Virus record (IMG/VR): IMGVR_UViG_3300007735_000958
Span: 1-62,845 of that record
Strand: one strand, 5' to 3'
DNA: 62,845 nucleotides
From: a virus
Shown here one piece after another: positions 47 through 62,845 of this stretch (the first letter of the stretch is position 1; the number at the start of each line of letters is the position of its first letter). The notes below the pieces were generated by a model. It ran no database searches. It saw only the letters and a program-made list of their open reading frames with translations, and had not been told where the DNA came from. Both the position numbers and the translations under genes were made by a program.

Positions 47-52
47 CAAAAT

Positions 53-125: not shown

Positions 126-130
126 CAGTT

Positions 131-203: not shown

Positions 204-207
204 CAAT

Positions 208-278: not shown

Positions 279-280
279 CA

Positions 281-496: not shown

Positions 497-502
497 AAAC
501 AT

Positions 503-579
503 AGGGGAATATATCAATTGGTTAGATTACGTGCTTTGGGAGCACGAGGTTGTGGGTTCGAGTCCCGCTTCCCCTACCA
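503..579 (+). tRNA. tRNA-Pro(TGG) with encoded CCA
   Basis: Acceptor AGGGGAA (503-509) pairs with TTCCCCT (569-575). Discriminator A576 is followed by CCA (577-579), the only clear encoded CCA among the tRNAs here. Anticodon arm CGTGC-TTTGGGA-GCACG gives TGG. The T loop TTCGAGT is normal. Confidence 0.92.
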
Positions 580-595
580 ACTTAAAAAATAAAAA

Positions 596-934
596 ATGGC
601 ACTTTTAATCGGAATGTTACTGATGCTTTTGGCGCAGATACTTACTTTCTATCAACTCCAGGGTCAGTTAAAATACCAATGGTTCAAAGATAACTATTGG
701 GTTATTGTATTGATGGGTATTCCTATATCAATGATGTATATGGAATCGGTTCGTCAAATCATCACTCATTATGGTGGATTACTTTGGCCATCTCGTCTTA
801 TTGGGTTTGGTATTGGGGTAGTGGTTTTTGCTATACTTTCACAATTACTTTTTGGAGAAAACTTAACCACAAAAACAATGGTATGTTTAATCCTTTCAGG
901 AGTTATTATACTGATACAAATATTTTGGAAATAA
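596..934 (+). CDS. small multi-pass membrane protein
   Basis: 112 residues, very hydrophobic. I read four likely membrane helices, at about 1-20, 32-50, 62-85 and 91-111, with few charged residues between them. The size and four-helix pattern recall small drug/metabolite (EamA/SMR-like) transporters, but no diagnostic motif was recognised, so substrate and role are unknown. It starts 16 nt after tRNA-Pro, is probably co-transcribed with the tRNAs, and precedes the T9SS-type secreted protein. An overlapping frame at 697-957 is a shadow. Confidence 0.7.
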   Translation: MALLIGMLLMLLAQILTFYQLQGQLKYQWFKDNYWVIVLMGIPISMMYMESVRQIITHYGGLLWPSRLIGFGIGVVVFAILSQLLFGENLTTKTMVCLILSGVIILIQIFWK

Positions 935-941
935 AAAATCA

Positions 942-950
942 ATATTTATT
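942..950 (+). promoter_or_regulatory. candidate late promoter box
   Basis: ATATTTATT, 27 nt upstream of the start at 978. It is one of a family of ATATTTAT(A/T) boxes that recur in gaps ahead of structural and late genes in this window. No TTTG box lies 20 nt upstream, unlike the host-type promoters. Confidence 0.4.
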
Positions 951-977
951 TATATAAACAATTTAAAAAAACAATCT

Positions 978-2546: not shown

Positions 2547-2559
2547 GATAAGGTAAAAA

Positions 2560-2991
2560 ATGTCAATACTAATCGCATCAGACCACGCAGGGTGGGAATT
2601 AAAAACTCAACTGATTGAGTATATGGATAAGTGTGGAATGGAATTAACGGACTTGGGAACAAATACTCCCGAGTCCGTTGATTACCCGGATTACGCACAC
2701 AAAATGTGTTCAAACTTTAAATCGCAATTTGGTATTCTTATATGTGGTAGTGGTAATGGGATGTGTATGACCGCAAACAAATGGCCAGGTATTCGTGCGG
2801 CACTTTGTTGGGATGTTGATATAGCAAGATTGGCACGGGCGCATAATAATGCAAATATTATTTGTCTACCCGCAAGGTTTCTTTGTATTGATGATGCAAT
2901 TGATATCCTTAACACTTTTTTAGAAACCGATTTTGAGGGAGATAGACATATTAAAAGAATGATGGCAATTAATATAAATGAAAATGTATAA
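2560..2991 (+). CDS. rpiB: ribose-5-phosphate isomerase B (RpiB/LacAB family)
   Basis: 143 residues, the usual RpiB length. It starts with the family N-terminus (ASDHAG). The catalytic loop is ILICGSGNGM, whose Cys acts as the base in ring opening, followed by NKWPGIRAALC and the R-A-H-N-N-AN-I-I-C-L-P-A-R-F block that binds phosphate. All key residues are visible. The enzyme interconverts ribose-5-phosphate and ribulose-5-phosphate. In a phage this would supply pentose phosphate for nucleotide synthesis during infection; a dCMP deaminase lies 1.6 kb downstream. It follows the T9SS gene by 13 nt and overlaps the next ORF. Confidence 0.9.
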   Translation: MSILIASDHAGWELKTQLIEYMDKCGMELTDLGTNTPESVDYPDYAHKMCSNFKSQFGILICGSGNGMCMTANKWPGIRAALCWDVDIARLARAHNNANIICLPARFLCIDDAIDILNTFLETDFEGDRHIKRMMAININENV

Positions 2992-3259
2992 ATTAGAAGA
3001 TGTAAACAGCGGACGGATTTGGGAAGCCGAATCTGTTAAATGGGCCCAAAGAGATTTACGAGGTGGAATCAAAAATTGGGAAGATGGTGGGCCGCATGTT
3101 GGTAATATGCTTGTTCTTGATTTTGAGTATTCAGATGGTATGGGTTCATTCTATTCTTTTTGCTCTGATAAGATAACTGAAATTGTAAATTGGAAGGGTA
3201 GAAATATTCATTTTAAAACTGAAGGTGATAAGGAATACAAACTATCTTTTAAATTTTGA
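2978..3259 (+). CDS. hypothetical protein
   Basis: 93 residues with mixed alpha/beta character, no signal peptide and no recognised motif. ATG at 2978 overlaps rpiB by 14 nt; a second ATG at 2984 (MYKLED) would give an 8-nt overlap and is equally plausible. Translational coupling to rpiB is likely. Confidence 0.65.
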   Translation: MKMYKLEDVNSGRIWEAESVKWAQRDLRGGIKNWEDGGPHVGNMLVLDFEYSDGMGSFYSFCSDKITEIVNWKGRNIHFKTEGDKEYKLSFKF

Positions 3260-3268
3260 TAAAAACAT

Positions 3269-3565
3269 ATGATTTATTTTATCGTATTTATTTTACAAAT
3301 TTTATTTAATATTGGTAAAGTATTCGAAATTAAACTTACATATGAAAATAAAACAAATGCTTTACTTTTAAATTCTATCTTCATAAATTTAGTTAGTTTG
3401 GGTTCAGTTTACTATTCAATAGATAATTTATTAAAAGGTGATTTTTGGGTTATATTTTTTTATGTATCCGGAAGCGTTTTTGGAAAATGGGTAGGTATGA
3501 CCAAAGTAAAAAATTATAGAGCTAAACTTTTATCATTCTTTGACAATGGAAATAAGGACAACTAA
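3269..3565 (+). CDS. small membrane protein
   Basis: 98 residues with three probable membrane helices, at about 1-16, 29-50 and 58-78, and a basic C-terminal tail (KVKNYRAKLL). Function not recognised. Its 3' end overlaps the GNAT gene by 20 nt, as is common in this tightly packed block. Confidence 0.65.
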   Translation: MIYFIVFILQILFNIGKVFEIKLTYENKTNALLLNSIFINLVSLGSVYYSIDNLLKGDFWVIFFYVSGSVFGKWVGMTKVKNYRAKLLSFFDNGNKDN

Positions 3566-3899
3566 ATACGATGAAGTAGAAAAAGAATTGGGCCACCTAA
3601 AATTTGATTTATTAGATAAATCTGCTACATATCAGGGTGCCTATTTTAAAGATAAATTAGTTGGTGTGGTTTCGTATGTAGAACACCCCAAACATATTTA
3701 TTTAGGACATGCTTATGTTGTAGAAGAACATCGGGGTAAAGGTATTTATAAATTACTTTGGGAATATAGAAATATGAAAGTAAAAGAATTGGGAAAACCC
3801 CTTATAGCGCATTGTAATGTATCTAGTTTAAAGCACTTTTTAAACAATGGATTTACTTTAGATAAAGGATTATTTATGGTTGTAAAAGAAATGGAATGA
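3546..3899 (+). CDS. GNAT-family N-acetyltransferase
   Basis: 117 residues. The central strand GHAYVVEEHRGKGIYKLLWEY carries the acetyl-CoA pyrophosphate-binding motif A (R/Q-x-x-G-x-G/A as HRGKGI), followed by a helix and the terminal N-G-F block (FLNNGFTL). ATG 3546 is preferred over an upstream TTG at 3540. It is short for the family but includes motifs A and B. Substrate unknown. It overlaps the genes on both sides, indicating co-translation with the phosphoesterase that follows. Confidence 0.8.
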   Translation: MEIRTTKYDEVEKELGHLKFDLLDKSATYQGAYFKDKLVGVVSYVEHPKHIYLGHAYVVEEHRGKGIYKLLWEYRNMKVKELGKPLIAHCNVSSLKHFLNNGFTLDKGLFMVVKEME

Positions 3900-4573
3900 A
3901 AATAGATGCTTTACTTATATCCGATATTCATTTGGGTTCTAAAGGATGCAATGCAGATAAACTTTTAGAAACCTTAAAACAATATGAACCTAAAGAATTA
4001 ATCATCGTAGGTGATTTTATTGATGGATGGTTACTTAAAAAAAGATTTTATTGGCCCCAATCTCATACAAATGTTCTTCGTAAAATACTTTCATATTCAA
4101 AAAATGGAACAAAAGTCCATTACATAACAGGCAACCACGATGAATATTTACGAAACTATACTCCTTTAATTTTAGGAAATATTGAAATTAAAGATGAAAT
4201 GATTTGGAATGATTATTATATTACACACGGAGATTTATACGATGGTGTTATTCAATTAAAGTGGTTAGGACATTTAGGTAGCTGGGGGTATGAACTCGCC
4301 ATTTGGATTGATAGAACCTTAAAAAAATTAGGATATAAAAAATCATTAAGTGCATACCTTAAATTAAAAGTAAAAGAAGCTGTTAAATTTATAACACGCT
4401 TTGAAAAGCAATTAGAATATCAGTCCGAAAAACGAAAATGTAGGGGAGTTATTTGCGGTCATATCCACACCCCCGAAATTAAGAAGGGTTATATTAATTG
4501 TGGTGATTGGATTGAAAATAATTCATATATAATATACATAAATAATGAATTTAAATTACTATCAAATATATAA
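3896..4573 (+). CDS. LpxH-like calcineurin-type metallophosphoesterase
   Basis: 225 residues. All five metallophosphoesterase motifs are visible in order: SDIHLG (residues 9-14), GDFIDGW (about 39-45), GNHDEY (about 80-85), HGD (about 112) and GHIHTP (about 188-193). The order and the W after GDFID are those of UDP-2,3-diacylglucosamine hydrolase (LpxH) and its close relatives, which make lipid X from UDP-diacylglucosamine at the inner membrane. A phage copy could act on lipid A precursors or on another phosphodiester; the substrate cannot be read from sequence. ATGA overlap with the GNAT gene. Confidence 0.8.
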   Translation: MKIDALLISDIHLGSKGCNADKLLETLKQYEPKELIIVGDFIDGWLLKKRFYWPQSHTNVLRKILSYSKNGTKVHYITGNHDEYLRNYTPLILGNIEIKDEMIWNDYYITHGDLYDGVIQLKWLGHLGSWGYELAIWIDRTLKKLGYKKSLSAYLKLKVKEAVKFITRFEKQLEYQSEKRKCRGVICGHIHTPEIKKGYINCGDWIENNSYIIYINNEFKLLSNI

Positions 4574-4576
4574 AAT

Positions 4577-5032
4577 ATGGAATGGGATGAATATTTTATT
4601 AACATAGCCGAACAAGTTAAGTTAAAATCTAAAGATGAAAAAACTCAAATCGGAGTGGTTATAGTTGGTAAAGATAACGAAATTGTTTCTACCGGCTATA
4701 ACTCATTTCCACGAGGGATTAATGATAATGTTAATGAAAGACAAGAAAGACCAGAGAAATACTTTTGGTTCTCACATGCGGAAACTAATTCTATAATAAA
4801 TTGTGCAAGAATTGGAGTATCTACACTAAATACTAAAATGTATATGACTTGTGGAATACCTTGTGCGGATTGTGCTCGTAATATAATAAATTCCGGCATA
4901 TCTGAAATAATATGTAGAACAAATAGTGGAGCTAAAGGGCCCAAATGGGAAGAAAGCGCTGAACGAAGTATTAAAATGTTTGAGGAAGCGGGGGTAGGTG
5001 TTTTTTATTACACAAAAAGTTTGGATAATTAA
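4577..5032 (+). CDS. dcd: dCMP deaminase
   Basis: 151 residues. It carries the zinc-dependent deaminase signature HAETN (His ligand and catalytic Glu, about residues 72-76) and PCADCARNI (two Cys ligands, about 98-106). The N-terminus (MEWDEYF...A...SKDEKTQIGVVIV) and the insert around NERQERPEKYFWFSHAE are typical of phage and eukaryotic dCMP deaminases. The reaction is dCMP to dUMP, feeding dTTP synthesis, which matches the needs of an AT-rich genome. The gene symbol is by function only (T4 calls it cd). Confidence 0.88.
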   Translation: MEWDEYFINIAEQVKLKSKDEKTQIGVVIVGKDNEIVSTGYNSFPRGINDNVNERQERPEKYFWFSHAETNSIINCARIGVSTLNTKMYMTCGIPCADCARNIINSGISEIICRTNSGAKGPKWEESAERSIKMFEEAGVGVFYYTKSLDN

Positions 5033-5051
5033 ATAATTATTTGTATATTGT
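5020..5051 (+). promoter_or_regulatory. Bacteroidetes-type promoter
   Basis: -33 box TTTG (5020-5023), 20-nt spacer, -7 region TATATTG starting at 5044. It overlaps the 3' end of the dCMP deaminase gene and drives the small ORF at 5074 and probably tRNA-Leu. Confidence 0.75.
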
Positions 5052-5073
5052 GTAAAGTTAAATGGGATATCAT

Positions 5074-5256
5074 ATGAAAGAATACTACTTTTATTTTAAA
5101 TCAGATTCTAAAAAAGAAGCACTTAGTAAAACAAAAGCAAGTTCTTTAGAAGATGCTATTGAGTTATTTTGTGAAACAAAAAAAATGAAGAAAGACCAAT
5201 TTAGTGAACTGTTTAGTGTATCTGAAGTGGTGAGAAAAAAAGTAGTTGATAAATAA
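5074..5256 (+). CDS. small hypothetical protein
   Basis: 60 residues, Lys/Glu-rich. An N-terminal beta strand (KEYYFYFKS) is followed by a helix-rich part (SLEDAIELFCETKKMKKDQFSELF), a layout seen in small phage proteins of unknown role. ATG 5074 is chosen over 5062 because the promoter at 5020-5051 would leave only about 5 nt of leader before 5062. Confidence 0.6.
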   Translation: MKEYYFYFKSDSKKEALSKTKASSLEDAIELFCETKKMKKDQFSELFSVSEVVRKKVVDK

Positions 5257-5263
5257 TCATAAT

Positions 5264-5348
5264 GCCTCGGTGGGGAAATAGGTAGACCCGCTGCACTTAA
5301 AATGCAGTAGCTGATGAAGCTGTACCGGTTCGATTCCGGTCCGAGGTA
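5264..5348 (+). tRNA. tRNA-Leu(TAA)
   Basis: Class II tRNA with a long variable arm (AGCTGATGAAGCT). Acceptor GCCTCGG (5264-5270) pairs with CCGAGGT (5341-5347). Anticodon arm CTGCA-CTTAAAA-TGCAG gives TAA, and the T loop TTCGATT is normal. Reads TTA, an abundant codon in these AT-rich genes. Confidence 0.93.
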
Positions 5349-5369
5349 CAAAACAAATATTAAATGTAT

Positions 5370-5378
5370 ATATTTATT
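5370..5378 (+). promoter_or_regulatory. candidate late promoter box
   Basis: ATATTTATT ending 4 nt before the start codon at 5383. If it acts as a -10-like box the transcript would be leaderless. Confidence 0.35.
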
Positions 5379-5382
5379 TAAA

Positions 5383-5796
5383 ATGGATAAATCTACATTA
5401 GAAAATCTTATTGATAGAATTAATATTAATGGTATTGTTAATACTGATGTTAGAGTTGATATAACTAATTATACTACTATATCAGCATCTTTCAATAATA
5501 CTGATGATAATGTTTTGGGGGATATAACAACTATAGTAGAGTATTTTCCAAATGCATCATTTGTTTTGCCTGAATCAGAAAGATTTCGTAGTTTATTGGG
5601 GTGCGTTACATCAAGTGTGGATATTACATACGGCCCGAATTACATTACGGTATCAGATACAACGTCCGATGTACCTACTGAAATAAGGTATTTGGTTGAA
5701 GATTTATCAATACCAAACCCAGTAAAATCTTTGGCAACTATTCGGAGTACGATTCCACCATTACCCGAACTACCCGTCCTACCAGAACCTGGTTAA
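5383..5796 (+). CDS. hypothetical protein with proline-rich tail
   Basis: 137 residues from ATG 5383. The longer in-frame start at 5314 lies inside tRNA-Leu and is rejected. The protein is Asn/Thr/Ile-rich and probably beta, with a short helix at the N-terminus and a Pro-rich C-terminus (PPLPELPVLPEPG). This composition is like the virion proteins further right, but no family was recognised. Confidence 0.65.
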   Translation: MDKSTLENLIDRININGIVNTDVRVDITNYTTISASFNNTDDNVLGDITTIVEYFPNASFVLPESERFRSLLGCVTSSVDITYGPNYITVSDTTSDVPTEIRYLVEDLSIPNPVKSLATIRSTIPPLPELPVLPEPG

Positions 5797-5805
5797 TAAT
5801 AGTAT

Positions 5806-6228
5806 ATGAGCGAATTTAATAATATATATTTTGTAGTTACTACAAGTTCTTTTGGTAGTAGATTTATTGAAGCGGCTACACACTTATCTGCTTCAAGCAC
5901 ATTTTCTTTTATAGCTAAATCAGATGGTAGTAGAAAATTATTAATTAATTCCGCTTCATTGGATGAAAATAATTTATTATCTAATAGTGAGGTTAGTTTT
6001 AATATAACCAATATATTTACTACGAGTAGTGCGGTAATTTCTTCAAGTAATCAAATTTTAAAATTAAGTGGAATAAAGTTTAAAGTAGAGCCATTAGTTG
6101 AGATATTTAGAATTAATCAATCACCCTCTTATGCAAAATTAGCTATAGCACAGGATGGGGCATTCTTTAATTGCTATTTTGAAGGTGGTGGATTTACATC
6201 ATCATATAATTTAACAAGACAGGTTTAA
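5806..6228 (+). CDS. hypothetical protein, virion-like composition
   Basis: 140 residues, Ser/Asn/Phe-rich, no signal peptide, probably beta-sheet. It follows the previous ORF by 9 nt and shares its composition, so the two may form a pair. Function unknown. Confidence 0.65.
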   Translation: MSEFNNIYFVVTTSSFGSRFIEAATHLSASSTFSFIAKSDGSRKLLINSASLDENNLLSNSEVSFNITNIFTTSSAVISSSNQILKLSGIKFKVEPLVEIFRINQSPSYAKLAIAQDGAFFNCYFEGGGFTSSYNLTRQV

Positions 6229-6271
6229 AATCTGCAATTGTATATCTGATTATATTCATGCAAAAAATAAA

Positions 6272-6303
6272 TTTGGATAATTAAAAATTATTTTGTATAT
6301 TTA
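6272..6303 (+). promoter_or_regulatory. Bacteroidetes-type promoter for tRNAs
   Basis: TTTG (6272-6275), 20-nt spacer, TATATTTA from 6296. It lies 9 nt upstream of tRNA-Gly(TCC), so the tRNA would start almost at the transcription start. Confidence 0.75.
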
Positions 6304-6311
6304 CATCATAC

Positions 6312-6383
6312 GCGGAGAAAGAGTTGAGAGAAACTCATTGGGCTTCCAGCTCAAAGATGGTGGGGCGGCGCCACCTCTCCGCT
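6312..6383 (+). tRNA. tRNA-Gly(TCC), atypical D and T loops
   Basis: Acceptor GCGGAGA (6312-6318) pairs with TCTCCGC (6376-6382). D stem GAGT/ACTC, anticodon arm TTGGG-CTTCCAG-CTCAA (TCC) and T stem GGTGG/CCACC are all intact. The T loop (6364-6370) is GGCGGCG with no TTC, and the D loop TGAGAGAA has no GG. It is the second tRNA in the window that lost both partners of the elbow contact. A second, more ordinary Gly(TCC) copy lies at 7211. Confidence 0.72.
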
Positions 6384-6410
6384 CTAATAGTAATGCCTCT
6401 ATAGATAATA

Positions 6411-6440
6411 CACCTTTAGCTTGGTTGGATAGAGTAAGTA
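6411..6440 (+). pseudogene. tRNA remnant (D-arm half)
   Basis: The stretch around TTTAGCTTGGTTGGATAGAGT looks like the acceptor/D-arm part of a tRNA (TAGCT-GGTTGG-TAGAGT pattern) but no anticodon or T arm follows. It sits between two tRNAs and is probably a decayed or deletion-truncated copy. Confidence 0.45.
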
Positions 6441-6448
6441 TATTTATA
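6440..6448 (+). promoter_or_regulatory. AT-rich box like the late promoters
   Basis: ATATTTATA located 6 nt before tRNA-Arg; same sequence as the boxes ahead of late genes. It could start a tRNA-Arg transcript or be a chance match in an AT-rich gap. Confidence 0.3.
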
Positions 6449-6454
6449 TAATTT

Positions 6455-6527
6455 GCGGTTATGATGTAATTGGATAGCATTAAACTCTTCTAAAGTTTCC
6501 GTATAGGTTCGAACCCTATTAACCGTA
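6455..6527 (+). tRNA. tRNA-Arg(TCT)
   Basis: Acceptor GCGGTTA (6455-6461) pairs with TAACCGT (6520-6526). Anticodon arm AAACT-CTTCTAA-AGTTT gives TCT, reading AGA, a very common codon here. T arm ATAGG-TTCGAAC-CCTAT is normal. No CCA encoded. Confidence 0.92.
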
Positions 6528-6544
6528 CAAAAAAATAAAAAATA

Positions 6545-6928
6545 ATGAATATAAAATACAAATTTAAAAAATTGCAGGTGTGGTTTAGGCAGGGCCTGGT
6601 TAGACACGAACCCTATACTGAAAGAGAGATTTTAACAAAGAGGGTTTTAATCCGATTGATGTCAAATCCAAAAACCCACTACTTGATGACACCATCGGGT
6701 AGATACTATGTTCAGACCGATGATAAACAATACACTTTGATATTGCAAAATAATATGGTTAAAGTTTCGAACCACTACTATACATTTGAGTTTACTATTA
6801 GTTCATTTTTATCAAATGAGCTGATTGAGTTGGTTCAAAAGGCAATTGAGAAAGAGCGTGGAAAAATGGAAGAAGAAATGTTTAAAACGGAAATAAACAT
6901 GCTTAATGATATTTTATCAAAAAAATAA
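6545..6928 (+). CDS. hypothetical protein
   Basis: 127 residues, basic at the N-terminus (KYKFKKLQVWFRQ), mixed alpha/beta in the middle and a C-terminal charged helix (EKERGKMEEEMFKTEINML). It starts 17 nt after tRNA-Arg and is probably on the same transcript. No family recognised. Confidence 0.65.
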   Translation: MNIKYKFKKLQVWFRQGLVRHEPYTEREILTKRVLIRLMSNPKTHYLMTPSGRYYVQTDDKQYTLILQNNMVKVSNHYYTFEFTISSFLSNELIELVQKAIEKERGKMEEEMFKTEINMLNDILSKK

Positions 6929-6949
6929 TTGTATTTATTTAAGAAAAAA

Positions 6950-6981
6950 TTTGGAAATATAAAATTTCTTTTGTATATTGT
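6950..6981 (+). promoter_or_regulatory. Bacteroidetes-type promoter
   Basis: TTTG (6950-6953), 20-nt spacer, TATATTG from 6974. It drives the small lipoprotein at 7005. Confidence 0.75.
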
Positions 6982-7004
6982 GTAAAATTTAAAACAAATT
7001 AATT

Positions 7005-7172
7005 ATGAAAAACATCTTTTTTATCGCAATGGTAGTTATGGCTGTATCATTTACGGCTTGTACCAACAACGCTGAACAAACTGAATTGGTTGCCGAACCA
7101 GTTGATTCTGCTGTTGTAGATTCTACTGAGGAGTTGTATCCTGTTGTAGATAGCACTGCAGCTGCTCAATAA
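7005..7172 (+). CDS. small lipoprotein
   Basis: 55 residues. It has a lipoprotein signal: MKN, hydrophobic stretch IFFIAMVVMAVS and lipobox FTAC with Cys19. The mature peptide is short, acidic and low in complexity, with repeated VVDST-like units (VDSAVVDST, VVDST). It has its own host-type promoter 24 nt upstream and is followed by tRNA-Gly. Short phage lipoproteins are often superinfection-exclusion factors acting in the periplasm or outer membrane; that role is inference here. Confidence 0.8.
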   Translation: MKNIFFIAMVVMAVSFTACTNNAEQTELVAEPVDSAVVDSTEELYPVVDSTAAAQ

Positions 7173-7188
7173 TAGTTTTTCAGATTAC

Positions 7189-7206
7189 ATCCCCCTTAGT
7201 GGGGAT
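7189..7206 (+). terminator. possible terminator hairpin
   Basis: Perfect ATCCCC/GGGGAT stem with loop CTTAGT just after the lipoprotein gene and before tRNA-Gly. No U tract follows, so it may instead be a processing signal. Confidence 0.3.
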
Positions 7207-7210
7207 ACTT

Positions 7211-7281
7211 GCGGGTATCGTATAATGGTATTACATTCGCTTTCCAAGCCTATGACGGTGGTTCGATTCCATCTACCCGCT
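7211..7281 (+). tRNA. tRNA-Gly(TCC), degenerate anticodon stem
   Basis: Acceptor GCGGGTA (7211-7217) pairs with TACCCGC (7274-7280). D-arm sequence (ATCGTATAATGGTATTAC) and T loop TTCGATT are like ordinary bacterial tRNA-Gly(TCC). The anticodon loop is TTTCCAA, but the stem TTCGC/GCCTA forms only about two inner pairs and one outer pair. Second Gly(TCC) gene in the window; it may be decaying or may have been altered at the anticodon stem. Confidence 0.8.
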
Positions 7282-15677: not shown

Positions 15678-16682
15678 ATGATTCAGTACGCTGATATTAT
15701 TGTAGATTTACAAGCCGGTGATACTGGTAAAGGTAAGGTTGCGCATTTCCTATCCAAAGATAAAGAATACACCCATGTGGTTCGTTATAATGGAGGGGGA
15801 AATGCCGGCCATACCGTTTATCACAATGGAGAAAAATTTGTAACCCACTATATTCCCGTTGGTGTGTTCTATGGTATTAAATCTATCATTGGGCCGGGAT
15901 GTGTAATAAACATTTTAGACCTTTATAAGGAATGGAAAGAATTGGAAGATAAAGGTATTAATGTATCTGATTATCTTTTCATAGATAAGAGGGTGCATAT
16001 GATAAGACCCGAACATTTGATGGAAGATTCCAAAGATACAAAAATCGGAACTACCAAAACAGGCAATGGGCCTGCGTATCGGGATAAGTATGCCCGAACA
16101 GGTATTAGAGCTGGTGATGATGAATTCAAATTAAAAAACAGTATTGATATCTACGAAGAGTTTTATGGTAGTACATCTGTAAAAATCTTATTTGAAGGTG
16201 CTCAAGGATTTGAGTTAGATATTGATTGGGGTGATTACCCTTATGTAACATCATCGCATTGTACGGTTGGTTCTGCTATTATGAATGGTGTTCCCCCACA
16301 AAAGATACGAAAGGTGTATGGGGTAGCAAAAGGATATCGTACCTATGTAGGAGCAAAACAATTTGAGGGGGATGATGAAATATTTAATAAGATTAGATTG
16401 TTGGGTAATGAATATGGTGCTACCACCGGTAGGAGCAGACAAGTTAATTGGTTGGATATGGATTTACTTATCAAAGCAATAAATTTAAATGGTGTAACCG
16501 ATATGGTGTTCAATAAAATTGATGTATTGGAAGAGGCAGGTACACTTTGTTTTATTTACTATGGTAAACCCACATATTTTCAAAATTCGGATTTATTTAA
16601 ATCGGAGATAGAATCTATCATCAGAGCAAAATGTGAATCAGTCAAAAATATTATTTTCAGTTATTCACCACATTCAATTTAA
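15678..16682 (+). CDS. adenylosuccinate synthetase family enzyme, PurZ-like
   Basis: 334 residues, about 100 shorter than bacterial PurA (near 430) and close to archaeal PurA and phage PurZ. Start IIVDLQAGDTGKGK (D15, T16, K18): the IVDLQ-x-G-x-TGKG pattern resembles phage PurZ (GSTGKG) rather than PurA (GDEGKG), but the PurA catalytic Asp is kept where classical PurZ has Ser. Further family motifs: NGGGNAGHTVY, IPVG, IGTTKTGNGPAY, LFEGAQG, YPYVTSS, GATTGRSRQVNWLD and FNKIDVL. PurA joins IMP and Asp; PurZ joins dGMP and Asp on the way to diaminopurine (Z). Which substrate this one uses cannot be decided from sequence. Downstream is uvsE. Confidence 0.8.
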   Translation: MIQYADIIVDLQAGDTGKGKVAHFLSKDKEYTHVVRYNGGGNAGHTVYHNGEKFVTHYIPVGVFYGIKSIIGPGCVINILDLYKEWKELEDKGINVSDYLFIDKRVHMIRPEHLMEDSKDTKIGTTKTGNGPAYRDKYARTGIRAGDDEFKLKNSIDIYEEFYGSTSVKILFEGAQGFELDIDWGDYPYVTSSHCTVGSAIMNGVPPQKIRKVYGVAKGYRTYVGAKQFEGDDEIFNKIRLLGNEYGATTGRSRQVNWLDMDLLIKAINLNGVTDMVFNKIDVLEEAGTLCFIYYGKPTYFQNSDLFKSEIESIIRAKCESVKNIIFSYSPHSI

Positions 16683-45083: not shown

Positions 45084-46658
45084 ATGCCATCGTGGAAAAA
45101 AATATTACAATCTGGTAGTGCTGTCCATGTAACAAACATAACAGCAAGTTCATTACCAAATGTATCTCAACCTGATATTATAGGTTATGATACCGCATCG
45201 GGCAGATTCACTTATTTTTCAACCTCTTCGTTAAGTAATATTCGAGGTACTGGTGTAAATCAACAAATTACTTTTTGGACCGGTACAAATAATATAACAG
45301 GTAGTACTGAACTTACTTGGAATAATACTACTTTAGCAATAAGTGGTGATATTGCTGCGGGGAATTTAACTGCTACGGGGAATTTAACTGTAACCGGTAA
45401 TACTACGCTGGGTGATTCAAGCACAGATACTATAACAATAAATCGTGCCAAATTTGTTGTAACTGCTTCAGCTGGGCAATACGCTGATGTAAAATTTAGA
45501 TTTTTAACTCAAAGTTATAAAAATCATGTTTTAACATACGATGAAGATACAGGTCAAATTTATTACTTTTCATCTAGCTTGCAAGGAACTGCTACAACTT
45601 GTAATCCACCAATACCATATGTTAGTATAAGTCCTAGTAATTTTTTATGTTCGGGAAGTACTGCCACTTTACAAGCGTATAATAATAATCCGAATGCACC
45701 GATTGGTACACTTACATATCAATGGTCTGCTAGTGGCGCGCCGATATTAAACGCAACAACCTCCGTATATGAACCAATAATAACAGCAAATACAACTTTT
45801 ACTGTTACAATGTGTGATGGTGTGTGTTGTAATTCGGAATCTGTAATCGTATATGTATTACCACATAATACTATAACATTATCATCGGCAGCAGGAACTG
45901 ATAATCAAAGTGTACCTGTGGGAACAACTATCACACCCATAACTTATACTACTACGGGGGCAACAAGCGCTGTTGTAACTAATTTACCTCCGGGAATTAC
46001 TGGTGTATGGTCTGCTGGTTCACCCGATACATTCACAATCAGCGGAACACCAAATGTAACTGGTGTATATCCTTATACAATTACAATGATAGGGGGGTGT
46101 AATGGTGGAGTTAATACTATAACGGGTAATATAAAGGTAACTGGTGGTCAGTCAGGCGAATTTCAAATCAGCGGCGTTGTTAGGTATGATAATACAGCAC
46201 TAACACCATTGAGTGATGTGGAGGTTCGATTGCTTGATAGTAACTTATCATTTACCAATATACCGCCTGTAACTACTAACACATCTGGTGTATATACAAT
46301 GAGTTTTACTACAACTGATGGGAATTATTATGTCACCGCCATTAGTACTAGATATTGGGCCGGAGTAAATGCAACGGATGCTTTAAGGATTAATCAACAT
46401 TTTGCAGGAATAGCGCCACTAACAGGAGTACGACTTAAAGCAGCTGATACGACTGGTAACGGTGCTGTGAATTCCGGTGATGCGCTGTTGGCAAGCCGTC
46501 GCTTTTCAAATCTTATCTCTAACTTCTCAATAGGTGACTGGGTTTCAGAAACCCCTCCAGTTAGTATAACTACTGGAACACCCACATATACACGCGACAT
46601 AAAGATGCTATCTGTTGGGGATGTAAACGGAAGCCGACCTGGTAATTCACTAATATAA
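45084..46658 (+). CDS. tail fibre with Ig-like and dockerin-like domains
   Basis: 524 residues in three parts. 1-170: phage fibre stem (MPSWKKILQSGSAVHV, NNTTLAISGDIAAGNLTATGNL, YDEDTGQIYYFSSSL), like the gene at 42621. 175-355: Ig-like domains typical of Bacteroidetes adhesins (ISPSNFLCSGSTATLQA, SGTPNVTGVYPYTITM). 357-524: a carboxypeptidase-regulatory-like strand set, then a dockerin-like EF-hand pair: WAGVNATDALRINQHFAG, then AADTTGNGAVNSGDALLASRRF, with the Ca-loop D-T-T-G-N-G-x-V-N-S-x-D, and a closing VGDVNGSRPG. The dockerin part is slightly GC-richer, consistent with host origin. Next gene (46692) starts with a cohesin-like domain. Confidence 0.8.
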   Translation: MPSWKKILQSGSAVHVTNITASSLPNVSQPDIIGYDTASGRFTYFSTSSLSNIRGTGVNQQITFWTGTNNITGSTELTWNNTTLAISGDIAAGNLTATGNLTVTGNTTLGDSSTDTITINRAKFVVTASAGQYADVKFRFLTQSYKNHVLTYDEDTGQIYYFSSSLQGTATTCNPPIPYVSISPSNFLCSGSTATLQAYNNNPNAPIGTLTYQWSASGAPILNATTSVYEPIITANTTFTVTMCDGVCCNSESVIVYVLPHNTITLSSAAGTDNQSVPVGTTITPITYTTTGATSAVVTNLPPGITGVWSAGSPDTFTISGTPNVTGVYPYTITMIGGCNGGVNTITGNIKVTGGQSGEFQISGVVRYDNTALTPLSDVEVRLLDSNLSFTNIPPVTTNTSGVYTMSFTTTDGNYYVTAISTRYWAGVNATDALRINQHFAGIAPLTGVRLKAADTTGNGAVNSGDALLASRRFSNLISNFSIGDWVSETPPVSITTGTPTYTRDIKMLSVGDVNGSRPGNSLI

Positions 46659-46691
46659 AAGCCCCTATACAAAAAGAAAGAAAACTAAAAT

Positions 46692-49600
46692 ATGGCATTA
46701 ACATTAACAACATCCGGCTCACTAAATACAACGGTTGATAATTATGCTTTTTCCATATTAAGTAATACTTCATCCGTTCAACTTGGAGCAGTTTCTTTAA
46801 AGCTTGTTGTTCCTGGCGGATGTACTATAAAAAATGTAAATGCAGGGACATCATCTGTAGATAGTTTAGTTTTTCTACAACAAAATGGAAACCTAAACAT
46901 TGGTATGTACACACTATCCAATTGGGTAGTAAACACAAACGATGTTATATTAAGTATTACCGCGAGTGGAATGTCCACTGGTTCATTTACTTTAAATACG
47001 GATGAAGATTGGTATTGTGAAATAGCAAGTAGTAGCGCAGAACCCTTTACTAATTTTGCTATTAAGATGCCATCTCTCGCCTCACCTTATGCGAGTGTAT
47101 CAACAACATTGGAAGCAGTATCAATCCTATCAGGTGTAAATCCTTCAATAACCGCTGTTGGTGCTCCAAACTCATCCGTCTTTGGTTCGGGTAGTAGAAC
47201 ATTAGGAACGGCTTCCATAGCAGAAGGTATTCGCACACTTGCTTCAGGACTTGCTTCACACGCCGCAGGTATCAATACAACCGCAAGTGGACAGGCAGCA
47301 TTCAGTATGGGTATAGAAACCGATGCAGATGGTATGGCTTCGTTTGCAGCAGGGTCGGGCTCGTGGGCAAAAGGAACTGCTACAGTTGCAATGGGTATTG
47401 GAACGATTGCATCTGCATCTGGGCAAACTGTTGTTGGTCACTATAATTTGGGACTTGGTGATTTCAACAATTTATTTGTAGTAGGGGGTGGTTCAGGCGC
47501 AACCACAAACTTGCGTAAAAACCTATTTAGAGTTTATGGTGGGTCTGGTGCAAGTACTGTTGGTGTGGAAATAAACACATCAGAAACACAATATATATCA
47601 TCCTTTGATGGGTTTAATGTTTATGGAAAAACCAGATTTTTCGGAGGTGTTACTGGTTCATCTATTGACTTTAATGCCGTTGGTGTAGATACCAAAACGA
47701 ATCTAGACCCGATAGGGGGAACAATAACAACAGGTTCTTTTACAAGTAATTTTTATAGGTGGGAAAACTTACCCACTGGTGGCGAAATGGTGCTTTTTGG
47801 GGAGGTTCTTAAAGCTTCGGTGAGGTTAGACCATAGAGGAATTAACTTTTCATTATCAGAACAAACCACCAATCCCGGTTCTACATTCCTATGGACAAAT
47901 TCATCTAATAGATTATTTTATAGTTCAAGTGCAGTAATCCTAAACGATGGTAACACATTAGGTAGTACAATGACTATTGGTACTACGGATGTGAATAATT
48001 TACAATTAGAAACCAATAATACAACAAGGATATTCATTTCCTCATCGGGTAATGTAGGTATAGGTACATCATCTCCAACCGAAAGGTTGCATGTAGATGG
48101 AAATCTATTAGTTACAGGTAGAATAACCGCAGAAGAGTTTCATACTGAATTTGTATCTGCAAGTATAATATATCAAAGTGGTTCAACACAATTTGGTAAT
48201 AGTTTAGATGATACTCATATCTTTACAGGCTCATTAAGGGTAAATGGTTCAATAACAGGTTCCCTTTTGGGAACATCAAGCTGGGCGATAAATGCTAGAA
48301 CATCCTCAAATATATTTCCGGCTATAACAAACAACACTTCAACTTACGTATTAACCGCAACCGGGGATGGAACTATAAATGGGAATTCAAATTTAACATT
48401 TGATGGTAATGATTTAATATTAAGTAATGGGAATATTAAACTTCCTGTCAACGGATATATATTTGGCGGAGATACTCAAATATTGAATGGTAACCACATC
48501 CTCCTCCCTGCTAACCCCCCGGCATTGCCCAATGATGTCTTAGCAGGTACATCCTCATTATTTGCACGTAATACTCAAATACAAATAAGAAGCATCAGTG
48601 AGCCAGATGTTGTAGGAGGTTATGAAAGTGGAAGTATATTCTTCAAAACCCCATCAGGTTTGGGGATGACATATACTAATGAAGGTAGGTTAGGCATAGG
48701 GGTTTCAAATCCTACTAATACTCTTCAAATCCAAGGCAATGTATCTGCTTCATCTTATACTGGTTCATTATTCGGAACATCAAGTTGGGCAGTAAATGCT
48801 CAGACAGCCTCATTCTTACCTGTAGGAACTTATAGTATAACATCAAGTTGGGCAACAAACGCTTTAACTGCTTCAAACATAACACCATCTATAACAAACA
48901 ATACTGATAATAGAGTATTGACCGCAACGGGCGGTGGAACAATAAATGGGGAATCAAACTTAACATTTGATGGAAGTGTTTTAACTGTAACTGGTAGAGC
49001 AAATATATCAACATCCATAACAAGTTCTACTGCAACTGTTGGGGTTGGTTCAATATCCGCTTTAAGCGCAGGTCAAACTACAATTAGAGGTTCTGGTGCT
49101 GATACTGTTGGCGCGCTTATTATCCAAACACCATCAGCCAACACATCATTTACGGTGCTTAATGGGGGAACTACGGGTGTTGGTGAAAATAACCCATCTG
49201 CAAGACTTCATGTAAAAGGTAGCGGAGCAACCTCCGCAACAACAGCACTTAGAGTAGAAAACAGCAACACCTCAGCTTCATTGGTAGTAACAGATGATAT
49301 ACGAGTTGGTATTAATAAAACTACACCTAATAGTGAATTGGATGTTAATGGTACTGTAACTGTAACTGGTTCAGTACATGTTCAATTGGGTTCTGGTTTT
49401 ACAGGACAAATGGTTGCTAACGGTAATAATTTTGATTTACGAAATAGTAGTTCAGGCACACACATTAGAATGCTCAATAGTAATAATACTACTTTATCCC
49501 AAGTAGTAACTGCTGAAAATGGGTTAAGAGTAACTCCGGGCGCAAATTCAACAACATCGGGATTAGTAATAACAACAGGTTCGTATCCGGCAGCAACTTT

Positions 49601-50312
49601 ATTATCAGTTGGTACAAATACATTAATTGTAACAGGTAGTAATGTAGGTATAGGAACATTAACACCCACAAACACTCTTCAAGTAGTAGGGGGTATAACC
49701 GCAACATCAATAACCGCTTCTATAATATCTGCTTCTAGTGGTATCACTGGTTCATTATTCGGAACATCAAGTTGGGCAGTAAATGCATTAACAGCTTCAT
49801 TCCTAAGTGGTGCTTTTTTACAAAATGGTAACTCATTTGGAACAACTGCAGTTTTAGGTACTAACGATACACAAAATCTACAATTTGAAACAAGTGGATC
49901 TGTGAGAATGACTATTAGCAGTAGTGGCAATGTAGGTATAGGCACAACTACTCCATCCGCTTCTTTACATGTTGAAGGTAATTTCCAAATATCAACAGGC
50001 TCACTATACACTTATGGACAAAACACAGACATAGATAGTGGTTCATTCCGAACTGTAATGAGTATATCTACAGGTTCATATAGAGCAGCATTTTTTGATT
50101 ATGTTCTAACAAGTGGTTCAAACGCAAGAGCAGGAACAGTATTTTCAGTATGGCAAGGAACATCGGTAGAATACGCTGATACATCAACCAACGATATTGG
50201 GAATACAACAGGTGTAAATTTATTAGTTAGTATGAGCGGTGCAAATATTGGTTTATTTGCCTCATCATCTAACGATAACTGGTCAATGAAAGCATTGGCA
50301 AGAATGTTATAA
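46692..50312 (+). CDS. tail fibre with cohesin-like, YadA-like and VGIGT repeats
   Basis: 1206 residues. 1-150: cohesin-like domain (YAFSILSNTSSVQLGAVSLKLVVPGG, NGNLNIGMYTLSNWVV). 155-256: YadA/Hep_Hag-like head repeats (ASGLASHAAGINTTASGQAAFSMGIETDADGMASFAAG, VAMGIGTIASASGQTVVGHYN). Then a series of modules: EFHTEFVSAS, GSITGSLLGTSSWA, LFGTSSWAVNA and VGIGTTTP. The C-terminal 100 residues form a beta domain (DSGSFRTVMSISTGSYRAAFFDYVLTSGSN). Likely a major side fibre. Confidence 0.8.
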   Translation: MALTLTTSGSLNTTVDNYAFSILSNTSSVQLGAVSLKLVVPGGCTIKNVNAGTSSVDSLVFLQQNGNLNIGMYTLSNWVVNTNDVILSITASGMSTGSFTLNTDEDWYCEIASSSAEPFTNFAIKMPSLASPYASVSTTLEAVSILSGVNPSITAVGAPNSSVFGSGSRTLGTASIAEGIRTLASGLASHAAGINTTASGQAAFSMGIETDADGMASFAAGSGSWAKGTATVAMGIGTIASASGQTVVGHYNLGLGDFNNLFVVGGGSGATTNLRKNLFRVYGGSGASTVGVEINTSETQYISSFDGFNVYGKTRFFGGVTGSSIDFNAVGVDTKTNLDPIGGTITTGSFTSNFYRWENLPTGGEMVLFGEVLKASVRLDHRGINFSLSEQTTNPGSTFLWTNSSNRLFYSSSAVILNDGNTLGSTMTIGTTDVNNLQLETNNTTRIFISSSGNVGIGTSSPTERLHVDGNLLVTGRITAEEFHTEFVSASIIYQSGSTQFGNSLDDTHIFTGSLRVNGSITGSLLGTSSWAINARTSSNIFPAITNNTSTYVLTATGDGTINGNSNLTFDGNDLILSNGNIKLPVNGYIFGGDTQILNGNHILLPANPPALPNDVLAGTSSLFARNTQIQIRSISEPDVVGGYESGSIFFKTPSGLGMTYTNEGRLGIGVSNPTNTLQIQGNVSASSYTGSLFGTSSWAVNAQTASFLPVGTYSITSSWATNALTASNITPSITNNTDNRVLTATGGGTINGESNLTFDGSVLTVTGRANISTSITSSTATVGVGSISALSAGQTTIRGSGADTVGALIIQTPSANTSFTVLNGGTTGVGENNPSARLHVKGSGATSATTALRVENSNTSASLVVTDDIRVGINKTTPNSELDVNGTVTVTGSVHVQLGSGFTGQMVANGNNFDLRNSSSGTHIRMLNSNNTTLSQVVTAENGLRVTPGANSTTSGLVITTGSYPAATLLSVGTNTLIVTGSNVGIGTLTPTNTLQVVGGITATSITASIISASSGITGSLFGTSSWAVNALTASFLSGAFLQNGNSFGTTAVLGTNDTQNLQFETSGSVRMTISSSGNVGIGTTTPSASLHVEGNFQISTGSLYTYGQNTDIDSGSFRTVMSISTGSYRAAFFDYVLTSGSNARAGTVFSVWQGTSVEYADTSTNDIGNTTGVNLLVSMSGANIGLFASSSNDNWSMKALARML
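48115..48297 (+). repeat. fibre module repeat A, copy 2
   Basis: Second copy of the 180-bp repeat at 41691. Confidence 0.8.
49636..49940 (+). repeat. fibre module repeat B, copy 1
   Basis: About 305 bp closely matching 54924-55245; encodes VGIGT-TPTNT-QVVGGITATSITASIISASSG...GTSSWAV...LQNGNSFGTTA. Confidence 0.8.
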
Positions 50313-50316
50313 GATT

Positions 50317-51003
50317 ATGGGATTTTATAGAGGACCAAATGTAGTTACTGACGGGTTAGTTTTAGCACTAGATGCTGCTAACCCTACATCATATGTAAGT
50401 GGTAGTACTACTTGGCGGGATTTAAGTGGGAGTGGGTTCAATTCAACTTTATCAAATATAATATTTAACTCTAATGGTTGGTTTGATAGTGGAAGTGCAA
50501 CATATTCTGTGAATAGATTTAATTCAGGTTCACCGCAACAAGGGACTTATCGTATTATTATGAAATTTCCACCTTTAGATACTACTAACTCGACCATCAT
50601 TTTTAATGATGGGGGTTCATCTAATAATTTAGTTTATTTATATAGAAATTCGTTTTGGGCTACAAACACATATGGTTGGTTGATTTTTTACACCAAAACC
50701 GATACAACGGTAGATTCACTATTAGCACAACCCACATATACACCAAATGTGTGGTATGATATTGTTTTTACATTTGATACAAGCGGTGCATATCGTGTTT
50801 ATAGGAATGCTGAACTATTATCATCATTAACTGCTACAAGTTTTTCTTCTTGGAATAGAACAGGAAATAATACACCAACATTATCAGCTAATTCGGGCGC
50901 AGGAACTGGAAATCTTTCATCATTTCAATGGTATAATCGCGCATTAACTCTAACCGAAATACAACAAAATTATAATGCAATAAGAGGAAGGTTTGGATTA
51001 TAA
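50317..51003 (+). CDS. LamG-like lectin-domain protein 1
   Basis: 228 residues. GPNVVTDGLVLALDAANPTSY and C-terminal SSFQWYNRALTLTEIQQNYNAIRGRFGL are the ends of a concanavalin-like LamG sandwich with the usual W-x-D-I-V-F-T-F-D strand. First of three tandem paralogues. Probably the carbohydrate-binding tip or decoration of a fibre. Confidence 0.82.
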   Translation: MGFYRGPNVVTDGLVLALDAANPTSYVSGSTTWRDLSGSGFNSTLSNIIFNSNGWFDSGSATYSVNRFNSGSPQQGTYRIIMKFPPLDTTNSTIIFNDGGSSNNLVYLYRNSFWATNTYGWLIFYTKTDTTVDSLLAQPTYTPNVWYDIVFTFDTSGAYRVYRNAELLSSLTATSFSSWNRTGNNTPTLSANSGAGTGNLSSFQWYNRALTLTEIQQNYNAIRGRFGL

Positions 51004-51006
51004 ATT

Positions 51007-52314
51007 ATGTTTACAGGACCAAATATAAGTAGAAATGGGTTAGTATTGTATATAGATGCTGCTAATACAACCAATCAAACCTCCCGAAATCTATTTAACT
51101 ATACAACTGATTTAACAAACGCATATTGGTCTAAAACACGGTGCCAAATTACAGCAAGTGCTGGTATAGCACCTGACGGAACTAATACTGCATTTGCTAT
51201 GACTATAACCGATTCTTCAAGTTTAGTTAGATTAACTGCGGGGACATTTACCGCATCTGTGGAAGGAGGTCCATATACATTTTCGTGTTATGTAAGTAAA
51301 AGTGTTAATTGTACTGCTGGTGCTTTAGATTTAGGAATCTATAATGGGACACAAACTGTTGGAGTTGAACCTTCATATGCTATCCAATCTAACTTTATCC
51401 AAAGTGGCTCAGGTGGGACTACAACAAGAACAACCCAAACAATTGGAAATGGGTGGTTTAGAGTAGCAACAACTGTAACATTGACTTCATCGGTTCACAC
51501 TTTTCAGAATTTTATAGATATAGAAAATGGGTTTGGAGGGAATAAATCAAATGGAGATGTAATATTTTTATGGAAACCACAATTTGAAGCAGGCTCAACT
51601 GCCACATCCCCAAACGATGTACCTGTAACAACAAGAACTGCTCCGGATTTATCAGGAAATGGTAACACTGGAACTTTTTCAACAAATAGACCTACTTGGA
51701 CACCTAATAATTTAGGTACTATTTCATTTTTAGGGTCTCCATCGGGAAACCCAACATTAACATATTCTTCATCACCCACTATTGATATTAGTGGTAGTAG
51801 TATGGCCGCAGAAGTTTGGATTAAATTTAATGGATTAGATTATACCACTAACTCAGGTAGTCTTATGCAAATTCTTCGTAAAGGAGTTCCAGATTCATCA
51901 TTACCTAATAATGGCATTTGGATTGGTTATGATAATAGAGCAAATCGTAGTTCATTTACATATACTTGTTTTGGAAATACAGCAGGTGGTTTTTCAGGTG
52001 GTAATAATAACTTTGGGGGTTCTAATTACGATCAAGTATTTACTGTAGGGGCATGGAATCATATAGCATTTTCAATAAACAACAGTACAGGTTCATTTTA
52101 CATAAACGGAGTAAAAAAAGGGCCGGATAAAAACTTTTCTAACTTAAATTTATACAATACAGGAAGTTCAACTACTGGAGTTACTGGATTTGATGTAACC
52201 CCATCAAAACCAACTCCATTTGAAATTGCAATATTTAAATTATATAACACATCGTTAAGTTCTGATCAAATTCTTCAAAACTACAACGCAACTAAAACCC
52301 GATTTGGATTATAA
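51007..52314 (+). CDS. LamG-like lectin-domain protein 2
   Basis: 435 residues, about twice the single domain: an N-terminal GPNISRNGLVLYIDAANTTN part, a jelly-roll carbohydrate-binding-like stretch (AFAMTITDSSSLVRL, GPYTFSCYVSKS), then a LamG sandwich (AEVWIKFNGLDYTT, VGAWNHIAFSINNSTGSFYING) ending in IFKLYNTSLSSDQILQNYNATKTRFGL. Second of the tandem set. Possibly binds a host surface glycan. Confidence 0.82.
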   Translation: MFTGPNISRNGLVLYIDAANTTNQTSRNLFNYTTDLTNAYWSKTRCQITASAGIAPDGTNTAFAMTITDSSSLVRLTAGTFTASVEGGPYTFSCYVSKSVNCTAGALDLGIYNGTQTVGVEPSYAIQSNFIQSGSGGTTTRTTQTIGNGWFRVATTVTLTSSVHTFQNFIDIENGFGGNKSNGDVIFLWKPQFEAGSTATSPNDVPVTTRTAPDLSGNGNTGTFSTNRPTWTPNNLGTISFLGSPSGNPTLTYSSSPTIDISGSSMAAEVWIKFNGLDYTTNSGSLMQILRKGVPDSSLPNNGIWIGYDNRANRSSFTYTCFGNTAGGFSGGNNNFGGSNYDQVFTVGAWNHIAFSINNSTGSFYINGVKKGPDKNFSNLNLYNTGSSTTGVTGFDVTPSKPTPFEIAIFKLYNTSLSSDQILQNYNATKTRFGL

Positions 52315-52317
52315 AGT

Positions 52318-53568
52318 ATGGCAACTTTTGGTGGACCTAATAGTGTAAAAACAGGGTCAATAATATTATTGGATGTAGCAAACATAAATTCGTTTAGGGG
52401 AGAGCCTACAACCAATTTAAGTAACAACTTCAGAGATTTTACAGGCACCACTTATTCGCCGAATGGAGAATGGCCCGGAACAACAGTCACCAAAACATAC
52501 TTTTCAGAGCTGCCAACCCCTATCGGTCCTGGCGCAACACTAATGACCGAATCAACATCATCGGGATATCAGGGTTTAAGTAGATATGGTGGTAGTAATG
52601 AATCAGGCGCACATTCACTATCTGCGTTTATTTATCCATTAACTTCAAATATAACAGAATTCACAATTGGTTTATTGGCGGATTCCAGTAATATGATATA
52701 TTTTAACTTAGTTACTGGTGCTATTACATACGGTGCGGGGATTTCAAATAGAAATTCAGTTTTAGAATCAGTCCCTAATTGGCCTGGTTGGTATAGAATA
52801 GGTGCTAATTTTGAGGGTAGAAATGGTGGATGGGTTGGTTCAATGGGATATCGTATGCACACTACTTACTCTGGGAGTGGGGTATTAAGATCTATGTATA
52901 TTACCGGCGTACAATATGAACTTAAATCATATCCAACTCCATTTGTAAGTGGAACACGAGGTACTACTGTTGCGGCAGGGGGAGGATGGGGAGACTTAAG
53001 TGGGAACAGTAATCATGGTGAATTGGTAAACAATCCAAGCTTTAGTAGTGATAATAGAGGTAGTATAGTGTTTGATGGAAGTGATGATTTTGTGCGATTA
53101 TCTAATTCTATAACAATATCTGCTAATACAAATTGGACAATACATTCGGTTGTATCTTCAAATGCAACAGCATCATCAGTACCTTATATGAGATTTTTAG
53201 GTAAGGATAATACATCTGCTAATGGTTTTTTCTTTTTTGAATGGAATAATAGAATACTTTCAACAAACAATGATGGAACAACCTTCGCATTCCAAACAGG
53301 TTTTACGCCAGCGCTCCCCCTTAATAATCAGTTTTTTTTACTAACATTGGTTGGTAATGGTGGTACATTAGAATTATATTTAAACAATGTTAAAACTAAT
53401 GTGAACGCAACTATTTCTGGTAGTTTAACTTTTGATAGAATTATGACAGAAAGGGGAATATTTACTCCGGGTGGTAGGATGGCTTTCTTTTTATCATATA
53501 ACAGAGCACTTTCAGCGAGTGAAATAGAACAAAACTACAACGCAATACGAGGACGTTTTGGGATATAA
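52318..53568 (+). CDS. LamG-like lectin-domain protein 3
   Basis: 416 residues. Starts GPNSVKTGSIILLDVANINSF and ends LSYNRALSASEIEQNYNAIRGRFGI, the same frame as its two neighbours. The middle holds YSGSGVLRSMYITGVQYELK and FDGSDDFVRLSNSI, TIHSVVSSNAT. Third LamG paralogue. Tandem copies with diverged centres suggest alternative receptor binding. Confidence 0.82.
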   Translation: MATFGGPNSVKTGSIILLDVANINSFRGEPTTNLSNNFRDFTGTTYSPNGEWPGTTVTKTYFSELPTPIGPGATLMTESTSSGYQGLSRYGGSNESGAHSLSAFIYPLTSNITEFTIGLLADSSNMIYFNLVTGAITYGAGISNRNSVLESVPNWPGWYRIGANFEGRNGGWVGSMGYRMHTTYSGSGVLRSMYITGVQYELKSYPTPFVSGTRGTTVAAGGGWGDLSGNSNHGELVNNPSFSSDNRGSIVFDGSDDFVRLSNSITISANTNWTIHSVVSSNATASSVPYMRFLGKDNTSANGFFFFEWNNRILSTNNDGTTFAFQTGFTPALPLNNQFFLLTLVGNGGTLELYLNNVKTNVNATISGSLTFDRIMTERGIFTPGGRMAFFLSYNRALSASEIEQNYNAIRGRFGI

Positions 53569-62238: not shown

Positions 62239-62845
62239 ATGAAATTAATAGTAGAAAAGAATGTTCCAACCGACCCAGCAAAATGGTCTTATTATAAATC
62301 TCAAGCAAAGAAAAAGTTTGATGTTTACCCATGTGTTCCTCTTGACTCGCTTGCGGTTACAAAAGATGGGTTAAAATCATATGATGAGTTAGAAGTTGGG
62401 GAAGATATACTTACATACAATTTAGAAAAGGATAATCTTGAATGGTCGCCTATAAAAAATATACATTATTTTGAAGATGCGCCACTTATGGAAATAAAAA
62501 AAGCAACAGGATTTAGATTTAGGTGTACTCCAAACCACAAATGGGTTATAAAGCGTGATGAAAATAGAACCCCTGAATTGGTTGATGCAAAAGATATAAC
62601 AACTCATATGAGGATTGTATTTTCATCTACAATGCAAAACGATACTGATTTAAATTTGATAAATGAAAATTGGGGAAAGCATGATTCTTGGGTTGAAAAA
62701 ATTGTAAAAATGTCAACGCAGCAAAGAGAAATTTGGTTAAGTAGTGCCATAGTTTATGATGGGTGGGAAAAAGGTAAATCTACTAAAGCGGTTGGCCGAA
62801 GAACTTTTGGATTTTCTCAAAAAAATAGAGACCATTTGTTAGCAA
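62239..62845 (+). CDS. intein-containing gene, 3'-truncated by window edge
   Basis: 202 codons with no stop. N-extein is 31 residues (MKLIVEKNVPTDPAKW ... KKKFDVYP) and resembles the start of a small conserved phage protein (KFDVYPSAYAN...). Then an intein begins at C32 (nt 62332): block A CVPLDSLAVTKDG and block B RCTPNHKWVI. The TxxH (TPNH) motif is complete. After block B the sequence enters a homing-endonuclease-like part (REIWLSSAIVYDGWEKGKST). The C-extein and splice site lie outside the window. Confidence 0.85.
   Translation, partial: MKLIVEKNVPTDPAKWSYYKSQAKKKFDVYPCVPLDSLAVTKDGLKSYDELEVGEDILTYNLEKDNLEWSPIKNIHYFEDAPLMEIKKATGFRFRCTPNHKWVIKRDENRTPELVDAKDITTHMRIVFSSTMQNDTDLNLINENWGKHDSWVEKIVKMSTQQREIWLSSAIVYDGWEKGKSTKAVGRRTFGFSQKNRDHLLA
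62332..62845 (+). mobile_element. intein, N-terminal part
   Basis: Hint-domain start (Cys at 62332-62334) inside the reading frame of the gene at 62239. Contains blocks A and B and the beginning of what may be a LAGLIDADG-like endonuclease. Only the N-terminal portion is present. Confidence 0.85.

Follow-up and report, generated by a model that had tools for sequence, protein, structure and literature searches.

The window analysed here is the whole of a 62,845-base virus record (IMG/VR record IMGVR_UViG_3300007735_000958), which carries head, baseplate and fibre genes. Two neighbouring plus-strand genes are the subject of this study: the gene at 45084–46658, with a product of 524 residues, and the gene at 46692–50312, with a product of 1206 residues, which starts 33 nt further on. 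We call the first the dockerin gene and the second the cohesin gene. The gap between them (46659–46691, plus strand) was scanned for terminators and none was found. Following the cohesin gene, three consecutive genes for LamG/concanavalin-like lectins occupy positions 50317–53568. Elsewhere in the window there are eight tRNA genes at 1–7281, one of which is cut by the window end, and a gene for a PurZ-like adenylosuccinate synthetase at 15678–16682 (phrog_1211, E 8.6e-75), which hints at 2-aminoadenine (Z) DNA.

The product of the dockerin gene begins with a segment running from MPSWKK to TYFSTSSL (residues 1–52; 45084–45239, plus strand). In BLASTP comparisons among the fibre proteins, this segment was 50–63% identical to the N-termini of the gene at 42621 in the window and of three short dockerin genes in a related phage (L050). 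It is common to several fibre genes and is probably a virion anchor. The middle of the protein (residues 53–356; 45240–46151, plus strand) reads as shaft-like and Ig-like sequence and varies between phages, with the related virus L001 sharing only part of it. This is followed by a CnaB/carboxypeptidase-regulatory-like domain (residues 357–424; 46152–46355, plus strand), which aligns with bacterial modules matching CarboxypepD_reg and SdrD_B. A Foldseek search with a model of the two genes read through as a single chain also matched a CnaB domain (8bdw).

A type I dockerin follows at residues 425–481 (46356–46526, plus strand). The first-pass annotation of this DNA, made from the letters alone, had described the end of the gene as dockerin-like, with two EF-hand-like stretches, a loop of the form D-T-T-G-N-G-x-V-N-S-x-D and a closing GDVNGS. 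The module itself was borne out when the profile for type I dockerins was applied: Pfam Dockerin_1 (PF00404) matched residues 428–473 with 28.0 bits and E 2.5e-6, the cut-off being 22.9. Matches above the cut-off were also present in two related records, G001 and G002, and the profile of the dockerin family matched the PDB dockerins 1ohz, 4uyq and 2b59. Both motifs are likewise present. The canonical Ca-binding loop DTTGNGAVNSGD (D455-TTGNGAVNSG-D466, residues 455–466; 46446–46481, plus strand) was read from the sequence and aligns with the loop of the homologues, and GDVNGS lies close to the chain end (residues 512–517; 46617–46634, plus strand). The two EF-hand-like stretches call for one correction. 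The loop of the first is degenerate (..RYWAGVNATD..), with only the last two ligand positions left (N429 and D432), and the dockerin therefore has one canonical loop rather than two. The first loop of the bacterial relatives is degenerate in the same way. Of the 39 family members compared, nearly all end in GDVNGS or something close to it, and this motif may supply the missing first half of the first loop, giving a permuted EF hand that the end of the chain holds in place. A PHROGs search with the dockerin protein gave no significant family.

The cohesin domain lies at the very N-terminus of the second product (residues 1–134; 46692–47093, plus strand) and is supported by a bacterial-only HMM, an AF2 model and fold matches. 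The remainder of this candidate distal fibre is a repeat-rich shaft and tip (47094–50312, plus strand) which matches PHROG 9942, ‘tail fiber protein’ (E 1.3e-8). The start of the gene had been called cohesin-like in the first-pass annotation. Searches of the product against Pfam and NCBIfam did not yield a family match, and the cohesin sequence on its own found nothing in the PDB. However, a family profile with phage and bacterial rows (A4) matched the PDB cohesin 2xdh with E 3.9e-6. A further profile was made only from bacterial sequences, using the domain that follows GDVNGS in six chains, and was searched against the 205 window ORFs of at least 60 residues. The cohesin-gene product was the sole significant ORF, with E 6.3e-11 (next best, 0.021).

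The AF2 model of residues 1–140, computed from 12 alignment rows, has nine strands, with a pLDDT of 89.6 and a pTM of 0.83. All 11 Foldseek matches to this model at E ≤ 0.001 were cohesins. In a second fold comparison, the best 50 listed entries were all cohesins, with Z scores of 7.8–11.2, the top entry being 2vn5_A (Z 11.2) and 2xdh scoring 11.1. By predicted fold and distant sequence relation the N-terminal domain is a cohesin, as had been suspected, and the domain observations in both genes are far beyond chance. The cohesin-gene product is without any of the N-terminal anchors of the neighbouring fibre genes; the cohesin stands at the anchor's place.

Further viruses were obtained by searches of IMG/VR. 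Two of these, L001 and L002, are identical over 12.5 kb and were counted once, and L050 and L053 are parts of a single record of 97 kb (G009). The order of a dockerin gene followed by a cohesin gene recurs four times across three related phages (once each in the window, L001/L002, L050 and L053), with gaps of 33, 34, 41 and 42 nt. The phages with the pair form one lineage, known from metagenomes only. Most window core genes share 97–99% identity with their G001 counterparts and roughly 60–90% with those of G009, and they have the same order; the fibre region is a mosaic. The L001 cohesin is 97% identical to that of the window but the dockerin gene ahead of it is built on a different backbone (MANEF..., 1515 residues), with the DNA similarity between the window and L001 restarting at 46662, inside the gap. 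In G009 two fibres are headed by a cohesin and four genes carry a dockerin, and each cohesin gene comes directly after a dockerin gene. The phage dockerins are carried on three different backbones (MPSWKK, MANEF and MSQIQIS), and the dockerin–cohesin pair stays together while the surrounding fibre array is reshuffled.

LamG-type genes, matched by BLAST, lie before the dockerin gene in L001. The end of the window gene at 62239–62844 is 97.5% identical to the more distant G009, with only 33 residues matching G001, and its sequence suggests a possible recent exchange between phages. The window gene at 41205 was considered as an unsplit form of the L053 pair and was dropped, as the BLAST matches cover a short shaft segment and not the N-terminus.

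The same CnaB–dockerin module is carried by Bacteroidota-type MAGs at 37–50% identity. In these bacterial chains the cohesin domain comes directly after GDVNGS and is often followed by a T9SS Por_Secre_tail, all in a single chain, in agreement with what the first-pass annotation had said of Bacteroidota adhesins. Such cohesins occur at 46 places in one Bacteroidota genome, and some Bacteroidota genes carry cohesins without a dockerin. In L006 (6227–8329) and L007 (6147–8285), a bacterial gene with two more cohesin-like domains, and so scaffoldin-like, lies right after the dockerin–cohesin gene. Bacterial proteins in L010 (at 4938), L011, L013 and L008 (minus strand) stop right after the closing motif of the dockerin and have no cohesin, making them stand-alone plugs.

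A captured host segment split across a gene boundary, one of the two readings offered at the outset, fits as an origin of the phage pair, as the homologous segment is a single chain in Bacteroidota but is spread over two genes in the phages. As a fresh accident it does not fit, because the split pair has been kept in three related phages. The tree of 39 dockerins is too poorly resolved to count the captures and is compatible with a single origin. The window also has a phage gene at 978–2546 whose product starts with a signal-like stretch and carries a T9SS Por_Secre_tail (Pfam E 8.6e-8); it is 97% conserved in G001 and 74% in G009. The protein is apparently exported by the type IX system of the host. 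As the phage encodes a T9SS-tailed protein, the host is probably a member of the Bacteroidota with T9SS.

The distribution of sequence differences within the domains bears on whether dockerin and cohesin act as partners. Three tandem genes of L050 consist of an MPSWKK anchor of ∼50 residues, a CnaB domain, a dockerin and a tail with little else, and are thus adaptor-like. Identity among the three is 69–86% in the anchor, 71–84% in the CnaB domain and 75–81% in the tail, but just 36–44% in the dockerin (Fisher p for dockerin versus the rest, 8.6e-6, 1.9e-8 and 2.6e-6); as this and the following tests were chosen after looking at the data and treat sites as independent, they are supporting rather than decisive. 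The two G009 cohesins are 82% identical and differ mainly at residues 66–86, comprising strand 6 and its edges, where 12 of 22 columns differ compared to 13 of 119 elsewhere (p 1.5e-5). Type I cohesins bind dockerin via the sheet 8-3-6-5, as in the 1OHZ complex. Between the window and G001, where the cohesins are 97% identical, the dockerin core is the best-kept part of the dockerin-gene end (61% versus 41%, p 0.015). The phage pairing is not simply one of neighbour with neighbour, because the G009 dockerins outnumber the cohesins 4 to 2 and the L050 dockerin at 9507, which adjoins a cohesin, is more diverged than one farther off.

We think it likely that each of the two genes encodes one half of a tail fibre, or one of two fibres stacked in series, and that a dockerin–cohesin contact joins them. 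The dockerin-gene product would be the proximal part, with the MPSWKK segment on the virion and the C-terminal CnaB–dockerin dyad as a plug. The cohesin-gene product would be the distal part, with its N-terminal cohesin as the socket. By analogy with cellulosomes, the binding of plug to socket would involve one or two Ca ions, and recombination at the gene boundary could move a distal fibre from one anchor to another. What we observe are the domains with their sequence relation or fold, the conserved gene order, the differences in anchors and the pattern of divergence; that the two proteins touch, that Ca is needed and how the fibre is oriented on the virion we infer. The joint is favoured by the conserved order of the pair, the N-terminal place of the cohesin and the confinement of divergence to the binding parts, for which a contact between the fibre subunits, the other reading offered at the outset, is the best explanation. 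The adjacency of the genes could, on the other hand, partly reflect co-inheritance of one DNA block. The model of the read-through chain (the window sequence through TAA, 9 rows) has a mean pLDDT of 49.8, which is too low for contacts, and no interface is visible in it because alignment depth is lacking; Foldseek still finds both CnaB and cohesin in this model. More tentatively, and with the balance leaning slightly against it, the genes may belong to a plug-and-socket system with several specificities, in which a range of diverged dockerin adaptors, placed on different virion anchors, would go with distal fibres headed by matching cohesins; the parts would be exchangeable by recombination at the gene boundary and might also plug into cohesins on the host surface.

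The main rival of the fibre joint is docking to the host, and both may hold. Here, dockerins at the fibre tips would plug into cohesins on T9SS-exported surface proteins of Bacteroidota, so that an assembly contact of the host serves as the receptor; host dockerins may in turn be caught by the cohesin fibre. This would agree with the plentiful Bacteroidota cohesins, some of them in genes without a dockerin, and with the probable T9SS-bearing host indicated by the window's own T9SS-tailed protein. Receptor-binding tips are often diversified, and G009 has more dockerins than cohesins, with diversified recognition parts. Nevertheless, host docking leaves unexplained why each phage cohesin gene comes after a dockerin gene and why the cohesin is at the N-terminus of an anchorless fibre, and the dockerin core is kept in phages that have their own cohesin in common. 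We regard host docking as unlikely, though as the most serious competitor.

Less probable still is that the Bacteroidota adhesin segment was taken up and split at the boundary to serve only as folded building blocks which do not pair. Phage fibres collect Ig-like domains freely, and such uptake, together with the homology to one-chain bacterial modules, would be in keeping with this. Against it, the pair retains its order at four places and on three backbones, the differences cluster in the binding parts, and the GDVNGS end and the Ca-loop residues are kept. Finally, a single fused chain produced by stop read-through, or one gene split by a sequencing error, was rejected as scarcely credible: the two window frames happen to be in phase, but two in-frame TAA codons separate them, the 34-nt gap of L001 is out of frame, and the downstream cohesin gene has its own ATG in all the phage pairs.

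The proposed fibre joint can be compared with several known systems. Cellulosomal X-dockerin:cohesin pairs (2b59, 4u3s, 4wi0 and 5g5d) also have an Ig-like module right before a C-terminal dockerin and a cohesin as partner, and the dockerin family profile aligns over both modules of the X-dockerin dyad of a scaffolding protein (2b59_B, E 7e-4). These cellulosomal complexes withstand high pulling force (PMC4266597). In contrast, the present pair is on phage fibres with a predicted contact and no enzymes or scaffoldin, and its dockerin has a degenerate first EF loop and an extra C-terminal GDVNGS. Cellulosomes are recognized by a multi-cohesin scaffoldin and dockerin-bearing enzymes, whereas each phage cohesin stands singly at the N-terminus of a fibre protein, and no cellulase domain was found when the fibre genes were scanned. 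The Bacteroidota CnaB–dockerin–cohesin–Por_Secre_tail proteins have direct homologues of the two domains, arranged in the same order, but they are single chains exported by T9SS, whereas the phages have two genes with a Por_Secre_tail on neither. The non-cellulosomal cohesin of Archaeoglobus fulgidus (2xdh) is the best sequence-profile match of the cohesin family and is among the best folds; it differs in being archaeal and cellular.

An anchor and a second protein docked to it make up the long tail fibre of T4. The branched receptor-binding systems of Klebsiella phages are likewise built (PMC6872550). Both are similar to the proposed arrangement in that separate polypeptides are joined, serially or via an adaptor, at a fibre joint. 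However, these joints use other folds, and we found no cohesin–dockerin contact described there. No dockerin or cohesin relative was found among 50,697 phage records in INPHARED, with bacterial and L050 queries included, the matches being weak (E 0.03) or unrelated, and the library searched contained no paper on dockerin or cohesin in phage fibres. A search of BFVD likewise gave nothing at E ≤ 0.001; rank 2, a weak match, was a protein from an uncultured member of the Caudovirales that carries a T9SS sorting domain. The cohesin–dockerin contact is in itself nothing new, but finding it in the fibre of a virus is, as far as our searches show.

If the proposal is correct, we know of no earlier example of a phage fibre assembled by a cohesin–dockerin joint. 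A virus would then be reusing a strong and specific contact of the bacterial surface to make parts for host recognition that can be exchanged, providing a natural, evolvable set of connectors with which to study how phages swap fibres. The pair also draws notice to a large and apparently little-studied family of dockerin–cohesin proteins on the surfaces of Bacteroidota.
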